64,000 nt of DNA from Pseudomonas sp. PDM05 (GTDB taxonomy: Bacteria; Pseudomonadota; Gammaproteobacteria; Pseudomonadales; Pseudomonadaceae), in NCBI RefSeq assembly GCF_014851685.1, contig NZ_JACVAC010000008.1, positions 1 to 64,000 on the forward strand. The letters are read 5' to 3'. The translations under genes and the position numbers were made by a program. The notes below the pieces were generated by a model that saw only the letters and a program-made list of their open reading frames with translations, searched no databases and was not told the DNA's origin. Of this stretch, positions 10,135 through 39,678 are shown one piece after another (the stretch's first letter is position 1; each line of letters starts with the position of its first letter).

Positions 10135-11556
10135 TTATTTCAACGCCGCATTCGCCGAGGCTTGCACCGCTTCGGCACTGCGCTTGTTCTTGATGCCATA
10201 ACACACCGCCATAAACGCCACCCACACCGGGATCGCGTACACCGACACCTGGATGCCCGGGATCATCAGCATCACCACCAGGATAAACGCCACGAACGCC
10301 AGGCAGATGTAGTTGCCGTACGGGTACCACAGCGCCTTGAACAACGGCACCTGGCCGGTGCGGTTCATGTGCTGGCGGAACTTGAAGTGCGAGAAGCTGA
10401 TCATCGCCCAGTTGATCACCAGCGTGGCCACGACCAACGACATCAGCAGTTCCAGCGCGTGCTGCGGGATCAGGTAGTTCATCAGCACCGCCACCAGCGT
10501 CACTGCCGCCGAGGCGAGGATCGAACGCACCGGCACGCCGCGCTTGTCGATCTTGGCCAGCGCTTTAGGCGCATCGCCCTGCTCGGCCATGCCCAGCAGC
10601 ATACGGCTGTTGCAGTACGTGCCGCTGTTGTACACCGACAGTGCCGCGGTCAGGACCACGAAGTTGAGGATGTGCGCAGCGGTGTTGCTGCCGAGCATCG
10701 AGAACACTTGCACGAACGGGCTGCCGCTATAGGCATCGCCGGACGCGTTGAGGGTGGTCAACAGGCTGTCCCACGGGGTCAGCGACAGCAGCACAACCAG
10801 CGCGCCGATGTAGAAAATCAGGATGCGGTAGATCACCTGGTTGATCGCTTTCGGGATCACGGTGCGTGGCTGGTCGGCTTCGGCAGCGGTGAAACCGAGC
10901 ATTTCCAGGCCGCCGAAGGAGAACATGATGATCGCCATGGCCATCACCAGGCCGCCAACGCCGTGGGGGAAGAAGCCGCCGTGTTCCCACAGGTTGCTCA
11001 CCGAAGCTTGCGGGCCGCCGCTGCCGCTGACCAGCAGGTAGCTGCCCAGGGCGATCATGCCGACAATGGCCACCACCTTGATGATCGCGAACCAGAACTC
11101 GGCCTCACCGAAGACTTTGACGTTGGCCAGGTTGATCAGGTTGATCAACACGAAGAACGCCGCCGCCGAGACCCAGGTCGGAATCTCCGGCCACCAGTAA
11201 TGCACGTATTTGCCGACGGCCGTCAGCTCCGACATGCCCACCAGGATGTACAGGATCCAGCAGTTCCAGCCCGACAGGAAGCCGGCGAAACCGCCCCAGT
11301 ACTTGTGGGCAAAGTGGCTGAAGGAACCGGCGACCGGCTCTTCGACGATCATTTCGCCAAGCTGGCGCATGATCATGAAGGCGATGAAGCCGCAGATGGC
11401 ATAGCCCAGGATCATCGACGGGCCGGCGGATTTGAGCACCCCGGCCGAGCCGAGGAACAGGCCGGTACCGATGGCGCCACCGAGGGCGATCAGCTGGATA
11501 TGACGATTTTTCAGGCCGCGTTTCAGCTCGCCTGAAGAGGAATGGGGTCCACTCAT
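10135..11556 (-). CDS. aroP: Aromatic amino acid permease (AroP/PheP type)
   Basis: This 473-residue APC-superfamily transporter has 12 TM helices. It is close to E. coli AroP along its whole length, including LKRGLKNRHIQLIALGGAIG at the start, GEMIVEEPVAGSFSHFA and NWAMISFSHFKFR. It should import Phe, Tyr and Trp by proton symport, though substrate range varies among paralogues. ATG 11556 is used, with a GTGAGA ribosome binding site. A frame beginning 18 bases earlier adds six non-conserved residues. A terminator follows, so it is probably transcribed alone. Confidence 0.88.
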   Translation of the reverse strand: MSGPHSSSGELKRGLKNRHIQLIALGGAIGTGLFLGSAGVLKSAGPSMILGYAICGFIAFMIMRQLGEMIVEEPVAGSFSHFAHKYWGGFAGFLSGWNCWILYILVGMSELTAVGKYVHYWWPEIPTWVSAAAFFVLINLINLANVKVFGEAEFWFAIIKVVAIVGMIALGSYLLVSGSGGPQASVSNLWEHGGFFPHGVGGLVMAMAIIMFSFGGLEMLGFTAAEADQPRTVIPKAINQVIYRILIFYIGALVVLLSLTPWDSLLTTLNASGDAYSGSPFVQVFSMLGSNTAAHILNFVVLTAALSVYNSGTYCNSRMLLGMAEQGDAPKALAKIDKRGVPVRSILASAAVTLVAVLMNYLIPQHALELLMSLVVATLVINWAMISFSHFKFRQHMNRTGQVPLFKALWYPYGNYICLAFVAFILVVMLMIPGIQVSVYAIPVWVAFMAVCYGIKNKRSAEAVQASANAALK

Positions 11557-12184
11557 GAAAAGGGTCTCACGCAAGGTTTGATGATGTTGAATACACGTAG
11601 CTGCCGTGAATCTCGACTCAAGCAGCCCCGCTCAAACCCCAGCGCAGGCACCAGGAGTACAGCGTCGTTCTAAGGGTCATGCGTCACCTGTTTGTTTTTA
11701 TCTGTGACGAAATCGAACCCGTCCGGCTCGTAGCCAAACGGAGTGATCAGGGTAGGCAAACCCTGAGGTCTTGGCCTTTCGCGTGGTTGCGCAAGGAGGG
11801 GTCACAGTAAAACGCGGCGCATTGTACACCGCTCGACTGCTTGGGGCCGCTCTCGAATGGTGCGTGCGACGAACTGTCAGGTATTCCTTACGGCAACCGC
11901 TACGCCAATGAACCCGCCACAGACTCGTAAATTTATCGTTACAGCGCGGAAAACCTACGTTACGGCTGTCAGTTTTAGAAAAATTGGCGGTCGCCGATTC
12001 GTTCAAAATCAGCCCCCCCAGCCTGCTGTATTTCCTCAGGAAAAAATCCCCTTGGAAAACCACAACAAAAATCGCCAATGGAACCGTGTCATTAAATTTT
12101 TTGCTTTCTGAAACACTCTCTCCTAGGTTCAAACCACTTGCCGGTCGGCAAGCCATTCTGAAAATGCCTTCAAGGAGAGACAGC
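11557..12184. other. Long intergenic region between aroP and the 44-aa peptide gene
   Basis: About 630 bases without a gene I can support. The left part should hold the aroP promoter (minus strand). The right part holds the leader of the 44-aa peptide gene, including a 16-bp palindrome at 12137-12152. A long minus-strand frame here (11698-12390) has non-protein-like composition and is not called. Confidence 0.6.
12137..12152. promoter_or_regulatory. Perfect palindrome CTTGCCG-GT-CGGCAAG, possible operator
   Basis: A perfect inverted repeat with 7-bp arms lies 33 bases before the start of the 44-aa peptide gene and before its ribosome binding site. Its size and symmetry resemble operators of TetR-type repressors. 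It could equally be a 5' leader hairpin. No regulator gene is next to it. Confidence 0.45.
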
Positions 12185-12319
12185 ATGCACACACTGGAAA
12201 ACGCTCTGGAAACCGAACTGCAACTCGACGATTGGTTTGAAGCCCCTACCCATGAGGCCGCCGTGGAAATGATGCAAGCCGACGCCGTGGTGCCGTTTGG
12301 CACCGCGATGTGGCCGTAA
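12185..12319 (+). CDS. Acidic 44-aa peptide, candidate precursor peptide
   Basis: ATG 12185 has a strong AAGGAGAG ribosome binding site 8 bases upstream. The 44-residue peptide (MHTLENALETELQLDDWFEA...) holds nine acidic residues and no Lys or Arg. Its apolar, Gly/Pro-containing end is VVPFGTAMWP. This layout, an acidic helical leader and a distinct short C-terminal segment, is what precursor peptides of ribosomally made, modified products often look like. A hairpin separates it from the downstream M29-like metalloprotein gene in the same orientation, so the two probably form an operon. I do not recognise a named family. An alternative is a regulatory leader peptide, but it lacks runs of a single amino acid. 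Confidence 0.6.
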   Translation: MHTLENALETELQLDDWFEAPTHEAAVEMMQADAVVPFGTAMWP

Positions 12320-12335
12320 CGCCCGACAGGCTCCC

Positions 12336-12361
12336 GGCAGGTGCTGTGCACGGCACCTGCC
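12336..12361 (+). terminator. Intergenic hairpin between peptide gene and M29-like gene
   Basis: GGCAGGTGC (12336-12344) pairs with GCACCTGCC (12353-12361) around an 8-base loop, 16 bases after the peptide stop. There is no T-run, so it more likely stabilises or partly attenuates the transcript than ends it. That would raise peptide expression over the enzyme. Confidence 0.6.
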
Positions 12362-12395
12362 CTCCCCTTACCCAAGGCACACAAGGACACCCGTC

Positions 12396-13355
12396 ATGGA
12401 CAAGGCCCGCGCTGTCGAACACTTTCTTTACTACCTCGCCCACCACCCGGCCCTCGCCGGCCTGAGCTGCCCCACCGTACTGCTGGGCCACACTGCGCGA
12501 TATGAGGCGATTGCCCTGGCCATCACCCACGCCAGCGCCGCGCGTTTCAACTTCCAGGTGCAGCGCCTGGATCTGGCCAGCAGCGAGACCCTGGCCCAGG
12601 CCATCGAAACCTGCGACCTGTACCTGTTCCTGTACGACTCGTCGACACTGCCCAACCCCAGCGCCCAAGGCCCGGCGTTTATCCGCGACCTGCAAGGGGT
12701 GATGGCGGAGCACTGGCAGAAGTCCCTGCTGTTCAAGGATTACGGCGACTACTTCTACGACACCTTCAGCGTCGAGCCCCAGCGCATCGCCGACCTCAAC
12801 GCCACGCTGATCCGGCGCCTGTCCCAGGCCCAGGTGCTGAGCTTTACCGACAAGCACGGTTCACGCCTTCAGGCGCCGCTGAGCAGCGTGCGCAAGTGGA
12901 CCAATATCAACGGCGTCGGCAACCACGACCTGGCGCCCGGCGAAATCGCCACCCACAGCGAAGCCATCAATGGCCAGGTACGGTTTGTCGGTACTTTCCT
13001 GAGCACCATCCCGTTTGCGCGCAAGTACGGCGTGCTGCAATCGCCACTGCAGTTGTGGATCGAAAATTCGACGGTGTGCAGCGTGGCCAGTGATGTGCCG
13101 GGGCTGGTGGAGGATTTCAACAAGTACCTGAACGCCAACCCGTCGAACCGGCGCGTGGAGGAATTGGGGATTGGCACCAATGAAGGGGTCAAGGATCTGT
13201 ATGCGCGCAATGCGGGCTTCGAGGAGCGCCACTGCGGCTTGCACTTGGGCTTGGGCGGCGGGCAGAAAGGCAGCCACCATCTGGACCTGATCTTCGCCAG
13301 CGGGGTGTTGGCACTGGATGACAAGCCGGTGTTTGATGGCAGCTTTGCCTTCTGA
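12396..13355 (+). CDS. M29-like (aminopeptidase T / NicX-type) metalloprotein
   Basis: This 319-residue soluble protein is related in its C-terminal half to M29 aminopeptidases and the 2,5-dihydroxypyridine dioxygenase NicX. The cues are PGEIATHSEAINGQVRFVG (181-199), EELGIGTN (255-262), EERHCGLHLGLG (276-287) and HHLDL (294-298). Probable metal ligands are E256, E277, H283, H294 or H295 and D297, so the site looks intact. AAGG about 9 bases before ATG 12396 is the ribosome binding site. The N-terminal 150 residues are less familiar. It could trim the upstream peptide, act as an Fe(II) oxygenase, or be an unrelated hydrolase; sequence alone does not decide. Confidence 0.65.
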   Translation: MDKARAVEHFLYYLAHHPALAGLSCPTVLLGHTARYEAIALAITHASAARFNFQVQRLDLASSETLAQAIETCDLYLFLYDSSTLPNPSAQGPAFIRDLQGVMAEHWQKSLLFKDYGDYFYDTFSVEPQRIADLNATLIRRLSQAQVLSFTDKHGSRLQAPLSSVRKWTNINGVGNHDLAPGEIATHSEAINGQVRFVGTFLSTIPFARKYGVLQSPLQLWIENSTVCSVASDVPGLVEDFNKYLNANPSNRRVEELGIGTNEGVKDLYARNAGFEERHCGLHLGLGGGQKGSHHLDLIFASGVLALDDKPVFDGSFAF

Positions 13356-13406: not shown

Positions 13407-13439
13407 AAAAAAAAACGCCAACCCGAGGGTTGGCGTTTT
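13407..13439. terminator. Bidirectional terminator between M29-like gene and rluB
   Basis: A long AT-flanked stem (AAAACGCCAACCC with GGGTTGGCGTTTT) lies between the two convergent genes. It gives a T-run on the plus side and a longer one on the minus side, so it can serve both. Confidence 0.85.
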
Positions 13440-13457: not shown

Positions 13458-14669
13458 TCACTGCGGCTTCTTGCGACCAAAACCAGGACGCTGGCCCGAA
13501 CCGGCCGGCGCGCCACGGCGCTTGCCCGACGGCTCGTCCGCGACCAGTTTCGGGCCAGGGCGCTTGTTCGCCGCCGGCTTGGCTGGACGCTTGGTGCTGG
13601 CGTTGTCGGCCGGGCGCTCGGCTTCACCACGGTTGCTGCGACCACCCGTCGGAGCCGGACGCGGTGCACGTGGAGCGCGCTCGCCTTCCTGACGCGATGG
13701 CGCGGTTGGGCGGCGCTCGCCTTCGATGTGCGGCTCACGGGAGATACGACCGCCGGTGGCCGGTGCATTCAACGCTGGGCGCAGCGTGCGCGCAACACGC
13801 TCGGTACGCGCCACAGGACGCGACGATTTACGCTGCATACGCTCAAGCTTGTCTTTGCTCTTGGCGTTCATCTGCGGCATGGCGACCGGCGTCAGGCCGA
13901 CTTCGGCGCTGAGGATGTCGACTTCGTACTGGCTCATTTCGCGCCAGCGGCCCATCGGCAGGTCGGAGTTCAGGAACACCGGGCCGAAACGCACGCGCTT
14001 CAGGCGGCTGACCACCAGGCCCTGGGATTCCCACAGGCGACGGACTTCACGGTTACGGCCTTCCATCACCACGCAGTGGTACCAGTGGTTGAAACCTTCG
14101 CCGCCTGGAGCCTGCTTGATGTCGGTGAACTTGGCCGGGCCGTCTTCGAGGACCACACCAGCTTTCAAGCGCTCGATCATCTCGTCATCGACTTCGCCAC
14201 GTACACGCACGGCGTATTCGCGGTCCATCTCATAGGACGGGTGCATCAGGCGGTTGGCCAGTTCACCGTCGGTGGTGAACATCAGCAAACCAGTGGTGTT
14301 GATGTCCAGGCGCCCGATGTTGATCCAACGGCCTTCTTTAGGCTTGGGCATCTTGTCGAACACGGTCGGACGGCCTTCCGGGTCGTCACGGGTGCAGATC
14401 TCGCCATCGGGCTTGTTGTACATGATCACGCGGCGCACCGATTCGGCGGCCTCTTCACGCTTGATGACCTTGCCATCAATGGTGATTGCATCGTGCAGGT
14501 CGACGCGCTGGCCGAGGGTGGCCTCGACGCCGTTGACCTTGATGCGCTTCTGGGTAATCCAGGCTTCGACGTCGCGGCGCGAGCCCACGCCGATACGCGC
14601 CAGCACCTTTTGCAGTTTTTCGCCTGCTGGGCCGATTTCCTGGCTGTCGTTCTGGTCTTTGTCGTTCAT
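13458..14669 (-). CDS. rluB: 23S rRNA pseudouridine-2605 synthase
   Basis: The 403-residue protein has an S4 RNA-binding domain (EKLQKVLARIGVGSRRDVEA...) and a RsuA-type catalytic domain with GRLDINTTGLL, whose Asp is the nucleophile. It modifies U2605 in 23S rRNA. A GGGAGG ribosome binding site fixes ATG 14669; the frame upstream to 14843 is not conserved. About 110 C-terminal residues form an unusually long Arg/Lys/Pro/Ala-rich, probably disordered tail (ending RPGFGRKKPQ). Such basic tails are common in pseudomonad RluB and likely add RNA affinity. Confidence 0.93.
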   Translation of the reverse strand: MNDKDQNDSQEIGPAGEKLQKVLARIGVGSRRDVEAWITQKRIKVNGVEATLGQRVDLHDAITIDGKVIKREEAAESVRRVIMYNKPDGEICTRDDPEGRPTVFDKMPKPKEGRWINIGRLDINTTGLLMFTTDGELANRLMHPSYEMDREYAVRVRGEVDDEMIERLKAGVVLEDGPAKFTDIKQAPGGEGFNHWYHCVVMEGRNREVRRLWESQGLVVSRLKRVRFGPVFLNSDLPMGRWREMSQYEVDILSAEVGLTPVAMPQMNAKSKDKLERMQRKSSRPVARTERVARTLRPALNAPATGGRISREPHIEGERRPTAPSRQEGERAPRAPRPAPTGGRSNRGEAERPADNASTKRPAKPAANKRPGPKLVADEPSGKRRGAPAGSGQRPGFGRKKPQ

Positions 14670-14855
14670 CTTAAGCACCTCCCGGTGGGTCGATTCAGGC
14701 GTGGCCTGAAGAGTGTTGAAAGCGGGGTCTTGGCCGAAGAGGTCGGCGAAGGGTCGCGAATCATACGCGTATGGCGCGGGTTGCGCATCAGAGACTAGTC
14801 GATAAAGGCAAAGTCGCCTGCCTTGCACCGACCAGTGGCCCACAGCAGATCAACA

Positions 14856-39081: not shown

Positions 39082-39412
39082 CATAAAACAGTGCATTGAC
39101 GATAGTCAATACATTAAGGAATATCCTATAACAAGTGATCAACTCTATCGAATAAGGCCAGTCCCGAACAGCCACCAAAGTGTCATAAAACCGAGCAAAC
39201 GCTGGGGTTTTGTCAGGGCTTGTATTTTACTTATTAGTTGGCGTAGAGTTTGCCCACTGTGTTTGCATGGGTCGCTTTGAACCTGGACCTGGGCAGTAGC
39301 TGAAGTAGTTGCGCTACAACCCGTTCGACGTCTTACTTTCCTGCAATCCAGTCCAGTACTCTTTCATGCGAAAGAGGCTGTCATTAATTTTTAGCGTCAA
39401 GGAAATAAGAAA
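39082..39412 (+). other. Long leader region of the cold-shock gene
   Basis: About 330 bases without a gene lie before the cold-shock ORF. Long structured 5' UTRs are typical of csp genes. A small hairpin CTTTCATGCGAAAG lies near 39361-39375. The promoter position cannot be fixed by eye. Confidence 0.5.
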
Positions 39413-39631
39413 ATGTCGGATAGCAAACGTCAGAGCGGCACCGTCAAGTGGTTTAACGACGAAAAAGGGTTTGGTTTTATCACTCCAGAAAGCGGCCCGG
39501 ATCTGTTCGTGCATTTCCGCGCTATTCAGGGCAACGGCTTCAAGAGCCTGAAAGAAGGCCAGAAAGTGACCTTCGTCTCGATCCAGGGCCAAAAAGGCCT
39601 GCAAGCAGACGAAGTACAAGCAGAAGGCTGA
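39413..39631 (+). CDS. Cold-shock protein (CspA family)
   Basis: The 72-residue cold-shock domain has RNP1 KGFGFITP and RNP2 LFVHFRAI, and starts [19 protein letters not shown]. It is a single-stranded nucleic acid chaperone. The similar domain at the end of the protein encoded at 57673 shares VHFRAI and KGLQA. It is followed by a strong terminator. Confidence 0.96.
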
Positions 39632-39645
39632 TCCTTCCTGCGACA

Positions 39646-39678
39646 AAAAGCCCCTGATATGACATCAGGGGCTTTTTT
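39646..39678 (+). terminator. Terminator of the cold-shock gene
   Basis: AAAAGCCCCTGAT/ATCAGGGGCTTTT forms a 13-bp stem with a 5-base loop and is followed by a T-run, 15 bases after the stop. Confidence 0.92.

Follow-up and report, generated by a model that had tools for sequence, protein, structure and literature searches.

The question raised by this locus is whether a 44-codon open reading frame and the metalloprotein gene that follows it, in a window of 64,000 nucleotides from Pseudomonas sp. PDM05 (the whole stretch of DNA that was analysed), encode the precursor and the tailoring enzyme of a peptide product. The initial annotation had proposed such an operon, and what it listed in support is present in the window: a 44-residue peptide with a strong ribosome binding site, no Lys or Arg, nine acidic residues and the C-terminal sequence VVPFGTAMWP, and a 9-bp hairpin that begins 16 nt past the peptide stop. 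Only the palindrome that it called perfect, at 12137-12152, turns out to be imperfect, with 7-bp arms around a 2-nt centre. The features on which the argument depends are the following.

10135-11574, minus strand: amino-acid permease gene, divergent neighbour of the pair.
12101-12129, plus strand: promoter-like element, TTGCTT (12101-12106) and TAGGTT (12124-12129) separated by 17 nt; found by eye.
12137-12152, no strand assigned: inverted repeat with arms CTTGCCG and CGGCAAG, which coincides with the presumed transcription start or closely follows it; read from the sequence.
12172-12177, plus strand: Shine-Dalgarno sequence AAGGAG of the peptide gene; its GGAG block is conserved in aligned upstream regions.
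12185-12319, plus strand: gene for an acidic, precursor-like peptide of 44 aa; open reading frame, alignment, selection and genome profile search.
12336-12361, plus strand: intergenic hairpin with 9-bp arms at 12336-12344 and 12353-12361.
12396-13355, plus strand: gene for a metalloprotein of 319 aa with the predicted M29/NicX/CgnB fold; open reading frame, AlphaFold2 model and ligand alignment.
13412-13439, no strand assigned: inverted repeat set between runs of A and T, a likely two-way terminator between the enzyme and pseudouridine synthase genes; found by eye and missing from the scan output.
13458-14843, minus strand: pseudouridine synthase gene (Pfam), convergent neighbour of the enzyme gene.

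The peptide and enzyme genes thus lie together on the plus strand between a divergent and a convergent neighbour, and a Pfam scan of five window neighbours showed that the next genes encode a protein with an RF-1 domain, an MFS transporter and ScpB. The permease and MFS transporter genes keep their positions in Pseudomonas, on the opposite strand or more than 2.5 kb off and outside the operon, and, judged by eye, they do not accompany the pair into other lineages. No oxygenase, exporter or protease gene is found in the peptide-enzyme operon. At gathering scores, Rfam returned only a cspA thermoregulator and tRNA across the whole window, with zero matches at the peptide-enzyme locus; the cspA element (39248-39678) barely exceeds its gathering score, at 80 vs 78 bits.

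The peptide open reading frame is a genuine gene, and purifying selection acts strongly on its protein sequence. Across 81 Pseudomonas sequences (the window and 80 contigs) pN/pS is 0.45 in codons 1-12 and 0.02 in codons 13-44 (non-synonymous 0.0073 vs synonymous 0.368), and for the 56 of these 81 sequences that are 957 nt long it is 0.15 for the enzyme and 0.044 for the whole peptide, ratios that describe rather than test because the sequence pairs are non-independent. The C-terminal part of the peptide is therefore under tighter constraint than the enzyme (0.02 vs 0.15). Antisense open reading frames over the region were set aside, given this selection on the plus frame. The absence of Lys and Arg is an unconserved trait, since many Pseudomonas relatives carry Lys at position 6.

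The pattern of conservation divides the peptide into a putative leader or recognition part, residues ~1-33, and a near-invariant tail, residues 34-44 (AVVPFGTAMWP). In an alignment of ten chosen peptides, from which L110 was omitted as identical to L108, the residues invariant apart from M1 are L14, W17, V27, M30, A34, V35, P37, T40, A41 and W43. Outside Pseudomonas, identity to the window peptide amounts to 1-4/13 over residues 1-13, 9-11/20 over residues 14-33 and 7-10/11 over the tail, with 10/11 in loci L108, L109, L111 and L131 and 7/11 in L130. When lineages are compared, conservation rises most steeply at the very C-terminus; within Pseudomonas, most of the peptide is kept. W43 is followed by P or A and often by one more hydrophobic residue, which is present in all 80 of the other Pseudomonas contigs (F in 54, L in 24, M in 2), is V in Burkholderia and I in genome G968, and is missing from the window and from genomes G376 and G1019. 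The window peptide, ending WP and stop at 12305-12319, is a naturally occurring tail variant, one residue shorter. An AlphaFold2 model of the peptide is weak (pLDDT 67.8, pTM 0.34) and only suggests two helices, at 14-19 and 21-33, followed by a short helix at 38-41.

It is informative to examine how strictly the two genes are associated. Within the genus, the peptide profile matches 105 of 298 genomes and the enzyme 107, and all 105 are among the 107, a patchy distribution covering roughly one in three of the genomes sampled. The two enzyme-only genomes hold relics adjoining the same pseudouridine synthase gene, of 30 aa in G034 and of 121 aa with a stop in G639, and no peptide relic was found beside either; hence, in this genus, the enzyme is essentially never without the peptide. 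In one of the 105 (G605) the peptide is intact and the enzyme is split over two frames. The peptide gene stands immediately upstream of the enzyme gene in 80/80 fetched contigs, with 59-77 nt from stop to start, a count that covers the fetched loci and is biased to close relatives in that these contigs are the closest 80 of 166. The chromosomal neighbourhood is the same in the 80 contigs wherever the contig extends far enough. The peptide-product cassette first proposed for the locus is supported, as are constant pairing and purifying selection. Among the Pseudomonas genomes with the pair, G426 and G497 also encode elsewhere an extra, more distant M29-like protein of 377-402 aa (L163:1853-3058; L164:1498-2628), and there is no peptide within the 5 kb read around these.

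Because Pseudomonas genomes share ancestry, the independent evidence for pairing is its recurrence in other lineages. Enzymes 45-46% identical to that of the window occur with the peptide on three Burkholderia replicons, an enzyme 52% identical occurs with it in G376, and enzymes 42-43% identical are found in G968 and G1019, from two genera of enterobacterial type, both with the peptide. By eye, the neighbours of the pair in B. arboris and B. cenocepacia differ from those in B. stagnalis, which indicates that only the two genes keep company. Flavin-oxygenase-like genes lie some kb from the pair in B. arboris and B. cenocepacia and are absent in B. stagnalis (by eye). Genes for GNAT-type acetyltransferases also occur near the pair in three loci outside Pseudomonas, at L109:6725-7303 (by eye) and at L130:75-578 and L131:3012-3566 (Pfam), perhaps by coincidence. 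A peptide hidden Markov model found no other convincing member in 266 genomes of the class. In G955, of the same genus as G968, the enzyme is truncated by the end of its contig and a search of the genome gave no peptide; in G083 (L112/L114) the enzyme is badly broken, in more than one frame, and no peptide was found.

The arrangement in G968 (L131) is the most telling single fact, and would suit a product or partner that acts in trans. There the intact peptide gene, with the tail AVVPVGTAMWPI, lies ~275 nt downstream of the enzyme gene (L131:2751-2867) and is followed by a strong terminator-like hairpin. Upstream of the enzyme remains a 61-nt relic (L131:1297-1357) that is 82% identical to 2709-2768, around the start of the peptide gene, the likeness being lost beyond. 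In all other peptide-bearing loci read, the peptide is upstream of the enzyme.

Ahead of the peptide gene, blocks resembling TTTTGCA and CTAGGTT, ~17 nt apart, are visible by eye in most of 21 aligned Pseudomonas upstream regions, and therefore a single promoter may serve both genes; a consensus promoter scan listed none at 12101-12129. The arms of the inverted repeat at 12137-12152 are wider apart in many relatives and weaker in others. The intergenic hairpin is supported by covariation: in relatives its helix reaches 11 pairs, and in an alignment of 18 rows, which were picked by eye and scored against a structure taken from one of them (a choice that favours the fit), 93.9% of cells pair and 9/11 pairs have two-sided changes, vs 31-51% of cells pairing when the alignment is slid by 1-3 columns. 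Hairpins are also predicted at the equivalent place in the four distant upstream-peptide loci that were folded (L108, L109, L111 and L130). In the simplest case the hairpin would act in partial termination or in protection of the mRNA end, making peptide output higher than enzyme output.

What, then, is the enzyme? Neither protein has a match in NCBIfam, Pfam, PHROGs or PADLOC; in Pfam the window enzyme has none even at E 10, and eight relatives have no M29 match. Sub-cut-off family matches of relatives (for example MRP_L53, E 0.0059, in L130) were ignored as partial, inconsistent between proteins and below the curated cut-off. PDB sequences gave no convincing match to the enzyme, and profiles A3 and A5 searched against them gave none to CgnB or CgnE at E 10; similarity to CgnB, M29 or NicX is undetectable by HMMER. 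An AlphaFold2 model (pLDDT 85.9, pTM 0.85, weak at 84-88 and 290-293) strongly matches one fold group only, that of NicX, the M29 aminopeptidases and CgnE/CgnB, the next unrelated chain having Z 7.3. NicX, a 2,5-dihydroxypyridine dioxygenase, is the best structural match (PDB 7cn3, 7cup; VIA Z 21.3, rmsd 6.5, 290 aligned); the aminopeptidases AmpT, PepS and AmpS give VIA Z 16.4-18.2 (PDB 2ayi, 4icr, 1zjc), CgnE gives Foldseek E 3.0e-9 and VIA Z 15.8 (rmsd 5.2, 263 aligned), and CgnB gives Foldseek E 2.5e-9 and VIA Z 15.6 (rmsd 6.1, 259 aligned). The high rmsd (4.8-6.6 Å) indicates a shared fold rather than close similarity. According to the model, then, the enzyme carries the M29/NicX/CgnB fold, in keeping with the M29/NicX-like character first ascribed to this same-strand gene.

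Six putative ligands, E183, E256, E277, H283, H295 and D297, are invariant in 23 diverse sequences and in 80/80 of the Pseudomonas contigs. Of the metal ligands named by the initial annotation, E256, E277, H283 and D297 stand, its H294/295 is settled as H295 by the invariant histidine of the H-x-D pair in the 23 sequences, and E183 was missing from its list. The first and second Glu are 73 residues apart, and the spacing of the last five ligands is E-21-E-6-H-12-H-2-D. The 23 sequences include, besides the paired enzymes, a second set, family B, of longer and distant relatives that are 21-26% identical and share the same six positions. A profile covering both kinds (A1) matches 110 of 195 genomes of one family, with scores all below those of the paired enzymes. 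Family-B proteins have ~11 more residues before H-x-D, and the short stretch there sets the paired family and CgnB apart from them. No convincing match was found for the family-B members scanned against Pfam (four) or NCBIfam (three), and a search for the peptide in the flanks of 33 family-B loci (L113, L120-L122, L132-L160; ~1.5 kb each side) gave nothing better than E 3.3. At one of these loci a gene for a PhyH phytanoyl-CoA-type Fe/2-oxoglutarate dioxygenase (L121:571-1422) adjoins the family-B gene, recalling CgnB and CgnC.

The closest mechanistic relatives of the enzyme are CgnB and CgnE of crocagin biosynthesis, and for this reason the earlier statement that no described family is involved, which agrees with the lack of library matches for both proteins, is too strong for the enzyme fold. 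As described in PMC10070186, CgnB and CgnE bind the crocagin precursor, whose Ile-Tyr-Trp end they turn into a tetracycle together with the oxygenase CgnC; CgnB has a two-zinc site formed by E161, E252, E274, H280, H291 and D293, and is proposed to use its metals for elimination. That same text reports no aminopeptidase activity for CgnB, which when alone left its peptide unchanged in vitro, CgnC being needed. A lone CgnB-like protein may accordingly do nothing visible. The resemblance to our enzyme extends from the fold to chain length, 304-310 residues (PDB 6zsv, 6zsu) vs 319 here, neither with a Pfam match, and to the ligands, which, judged by order and spacing rather than by superposition, follow the same order E, E, E, H, H, D, with the last five spaced 22, 6, 11, 2 in CgnB vs 21, 6, 12, 2 here, whereas the first and second Glu are 91 residues apart in CgnB vs 73 here. 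Since all six zinc-binding positions of CgnB have likely counterparts, a dinuclear-metal site seems a stronger reading than an Fe(II) dioxygenase, yet it is NicX that matches best in structure.

The crocagin system also resembles the pair in that its operon includes the gene for a short precursor and in that Trp stands at or near the precursor C-terminus. It differs in that the CgnA leader is basic and the precursor here is acidic, and in that the crocagin core ends in IYW and the tail here in (M/L)W(P/A), often with one more residue. Moreover, no CgnC-like dioxygenase, second homologue or CgnD was seen beside the pair, in a scan of the five window neighbours and by eye in the other lineages. 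We therefore do not file the cassette as a crocagin pathway, because sequence homology to CgnB/CgnE, a CgnC and the Tyr-Trp features are lacking, and we do not assign the pair to M29 or NicX. Although NicX is the best fold match, the enzyme has a peptide partner and six ligand positions of CgnB/M29 type (NicX's own ligand set lying outside this comparison), and none of the five neighbours scanned is a pyridine-degradation gene. The M29 enzymes share with it the fold and a putative dinuclear metal set; in contrast, they are some 80-95 residues longer in the chains matched (397-413 aa), and it is tied to one peptide gene and lacks a Pfam match.

It is also worth considering the RiPP precursors with an invariant core, PqqA and MftA, each a short peptide with a core that changes little across lineages, encoded beside an enzyme gene. 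The cassette described here differs from these in its single tailoring gene, and neither a radical SAM gene nor an RRE gene was seen next to it. In PMC10070186, single-copy CgnB homologues were used to mine genomes, and the putative precursors are given in its supplementary data; those lists fall outside the scope of our literature comparison, in which no description of the peptide-enzyme pair appeared among the matches listed from the open-access literature. PMC12636437 concerns a different Pseudomonas RiPP cluster. No known substrate of the enzyme turned up either, which is weak evidence.

Several other explanations have to be weighed against that of a precursor and its maturation enzyme. 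The peptide might be the permanent small partner of a metalloenzyme whose substrate is a different metabolite, serving it as a regulator, a pseudosubstrate inhibitor or a chaperone of the metal site; this would fit a single enzyme with no other tailoring gene beside it, the conservation within Pseudomonas of most of the peptide beyond the tail alone, and a nearest fold, NicX, that acts on a small molecule. We regard this as a serious but unlikely alternative: the steepest conservation between lineages is at the extreme C-terminus, as for a core or a tail bound in an active site, CgnB and CgnE, which belong to the fold group, are RiPP proteins that bind peptides, and the hairpin would suit two products made in unequal amounts better than a 1:1 output. 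It seems to us quite improbable that the protein is a dedicated metallopeptidase whose only role is to cut the peptide, either to set free a short unmodified signal or to remove it. Such an enzyme would account for the close structural matches to M29 aminopeptidases and for the six putative metal positions that are kept, but the protein is well short of the matched M29 chains and without a Pfam match, and CgnB, with its similar metal set, showed no aminopeptidase activity in PMC10070186.

Far less probable is that the open reading frame is a cis-acting leader or ribosome-arrest peptide that controls the downstream gene through the hairpin. Such a device would show what is found at the peptide-bearing loci read, one genus excepted, namely a peptide upstream of the enzyme and a hairpin, and a Trp-Pro near the stop is reminiscent of the known arrest peptides TnaC and SecM. 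This explanation is, however, largely refuted by the gene order of G968, where the intact peptide is downstream with its own terminator-like hairpin and the upstream copy has decayed, and arrest close to the stop is ill-suited to a C-terminal end that varies among WP, WPF, WPL, WPM, WPV, WPI and WA. We give equally little credence to a toxin-antitoxin or defence module, as might be suspected from two small adjacent genes with a patchy distribution in the genus, and have dropped it: PADLOC and PHROGs gave no match, the enzyme matches none of 50,697 phage records and only three of 72,556 plasmid records (each a Burkholderia replicon of 3.2-3.5 Mb), and the pair occupies a single chromosomal site in the 80 Pseudomonas contigs as far as these extend. 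Among viral contigs, 31 pattern stretches included no relative.

We consider it somewhat probable, arguing largely by analogy with CgnB, that the pair is a minimal RiPP-like cassette, consisting of a precursor and a CgnB-like dinuclear metalloprotein that would bind it and mature the tail AVVPFGTA(M/L)WP. One can imagine the following course. The ribosome would make the acidic peptide, whose helical middle (~L14-M30, with LxxWf...VEMM) may be recognised by the partner protein, and the part acted on would be the tail AVVPFGTA(M/L)W(P/A). The partner, like CgnB, would bind its cognate peptide, and its putative metal pair (E183, E256, E277, H283, H295 and D297) might run one reaction near the invariant Trp of the tail, either elimination and cyclisation or a dedicated cleavage. 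Either the enzyme alone would suffice or helpers would be encoded elsewhere, and any later trimming or partner oxidase would come from elsewhere in the genome. The intergenic hairpin, for its part, may keep peptide output above that of the enzyme. Since distant lineages have almost the same tail, such a RiPP-like cassette would probably yield a single fixed small molecule, comparable to a cofactor, metallophore or signal, and not a diversifying bacteriocin.

There is a fair chance that the pair represents a new class. Only tentatively, as something rather short of an even prospect, do we suggest in full a class of ribosomal-peptide product in which a dinuclear metalloprotein of M29/CgnB fold is the sole dedicated tailoring enzyme and turns the nearly unvarying tail AVVPFGTA(M/L)WP into one conserved small molecule, made across Pseudomonas, Burkholderia and enterobacterial-type bacteria. 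If this is true, the cassette, which has no name in the family libraries searched, would be among the smallest kinds of modified-peptide pathway, with a single precursor and a single metalloprotein, and the CgnB fold would gain a self-contained system for its unsettled chemistry. Even if the peptide should be a partner and not a precursor, a near-obligate partner of 44 residues would be unusual for the M29/CgnB fold. As a ribosomal-peptide product, it would suggest that common soil bacteria share a conserved metabolite.
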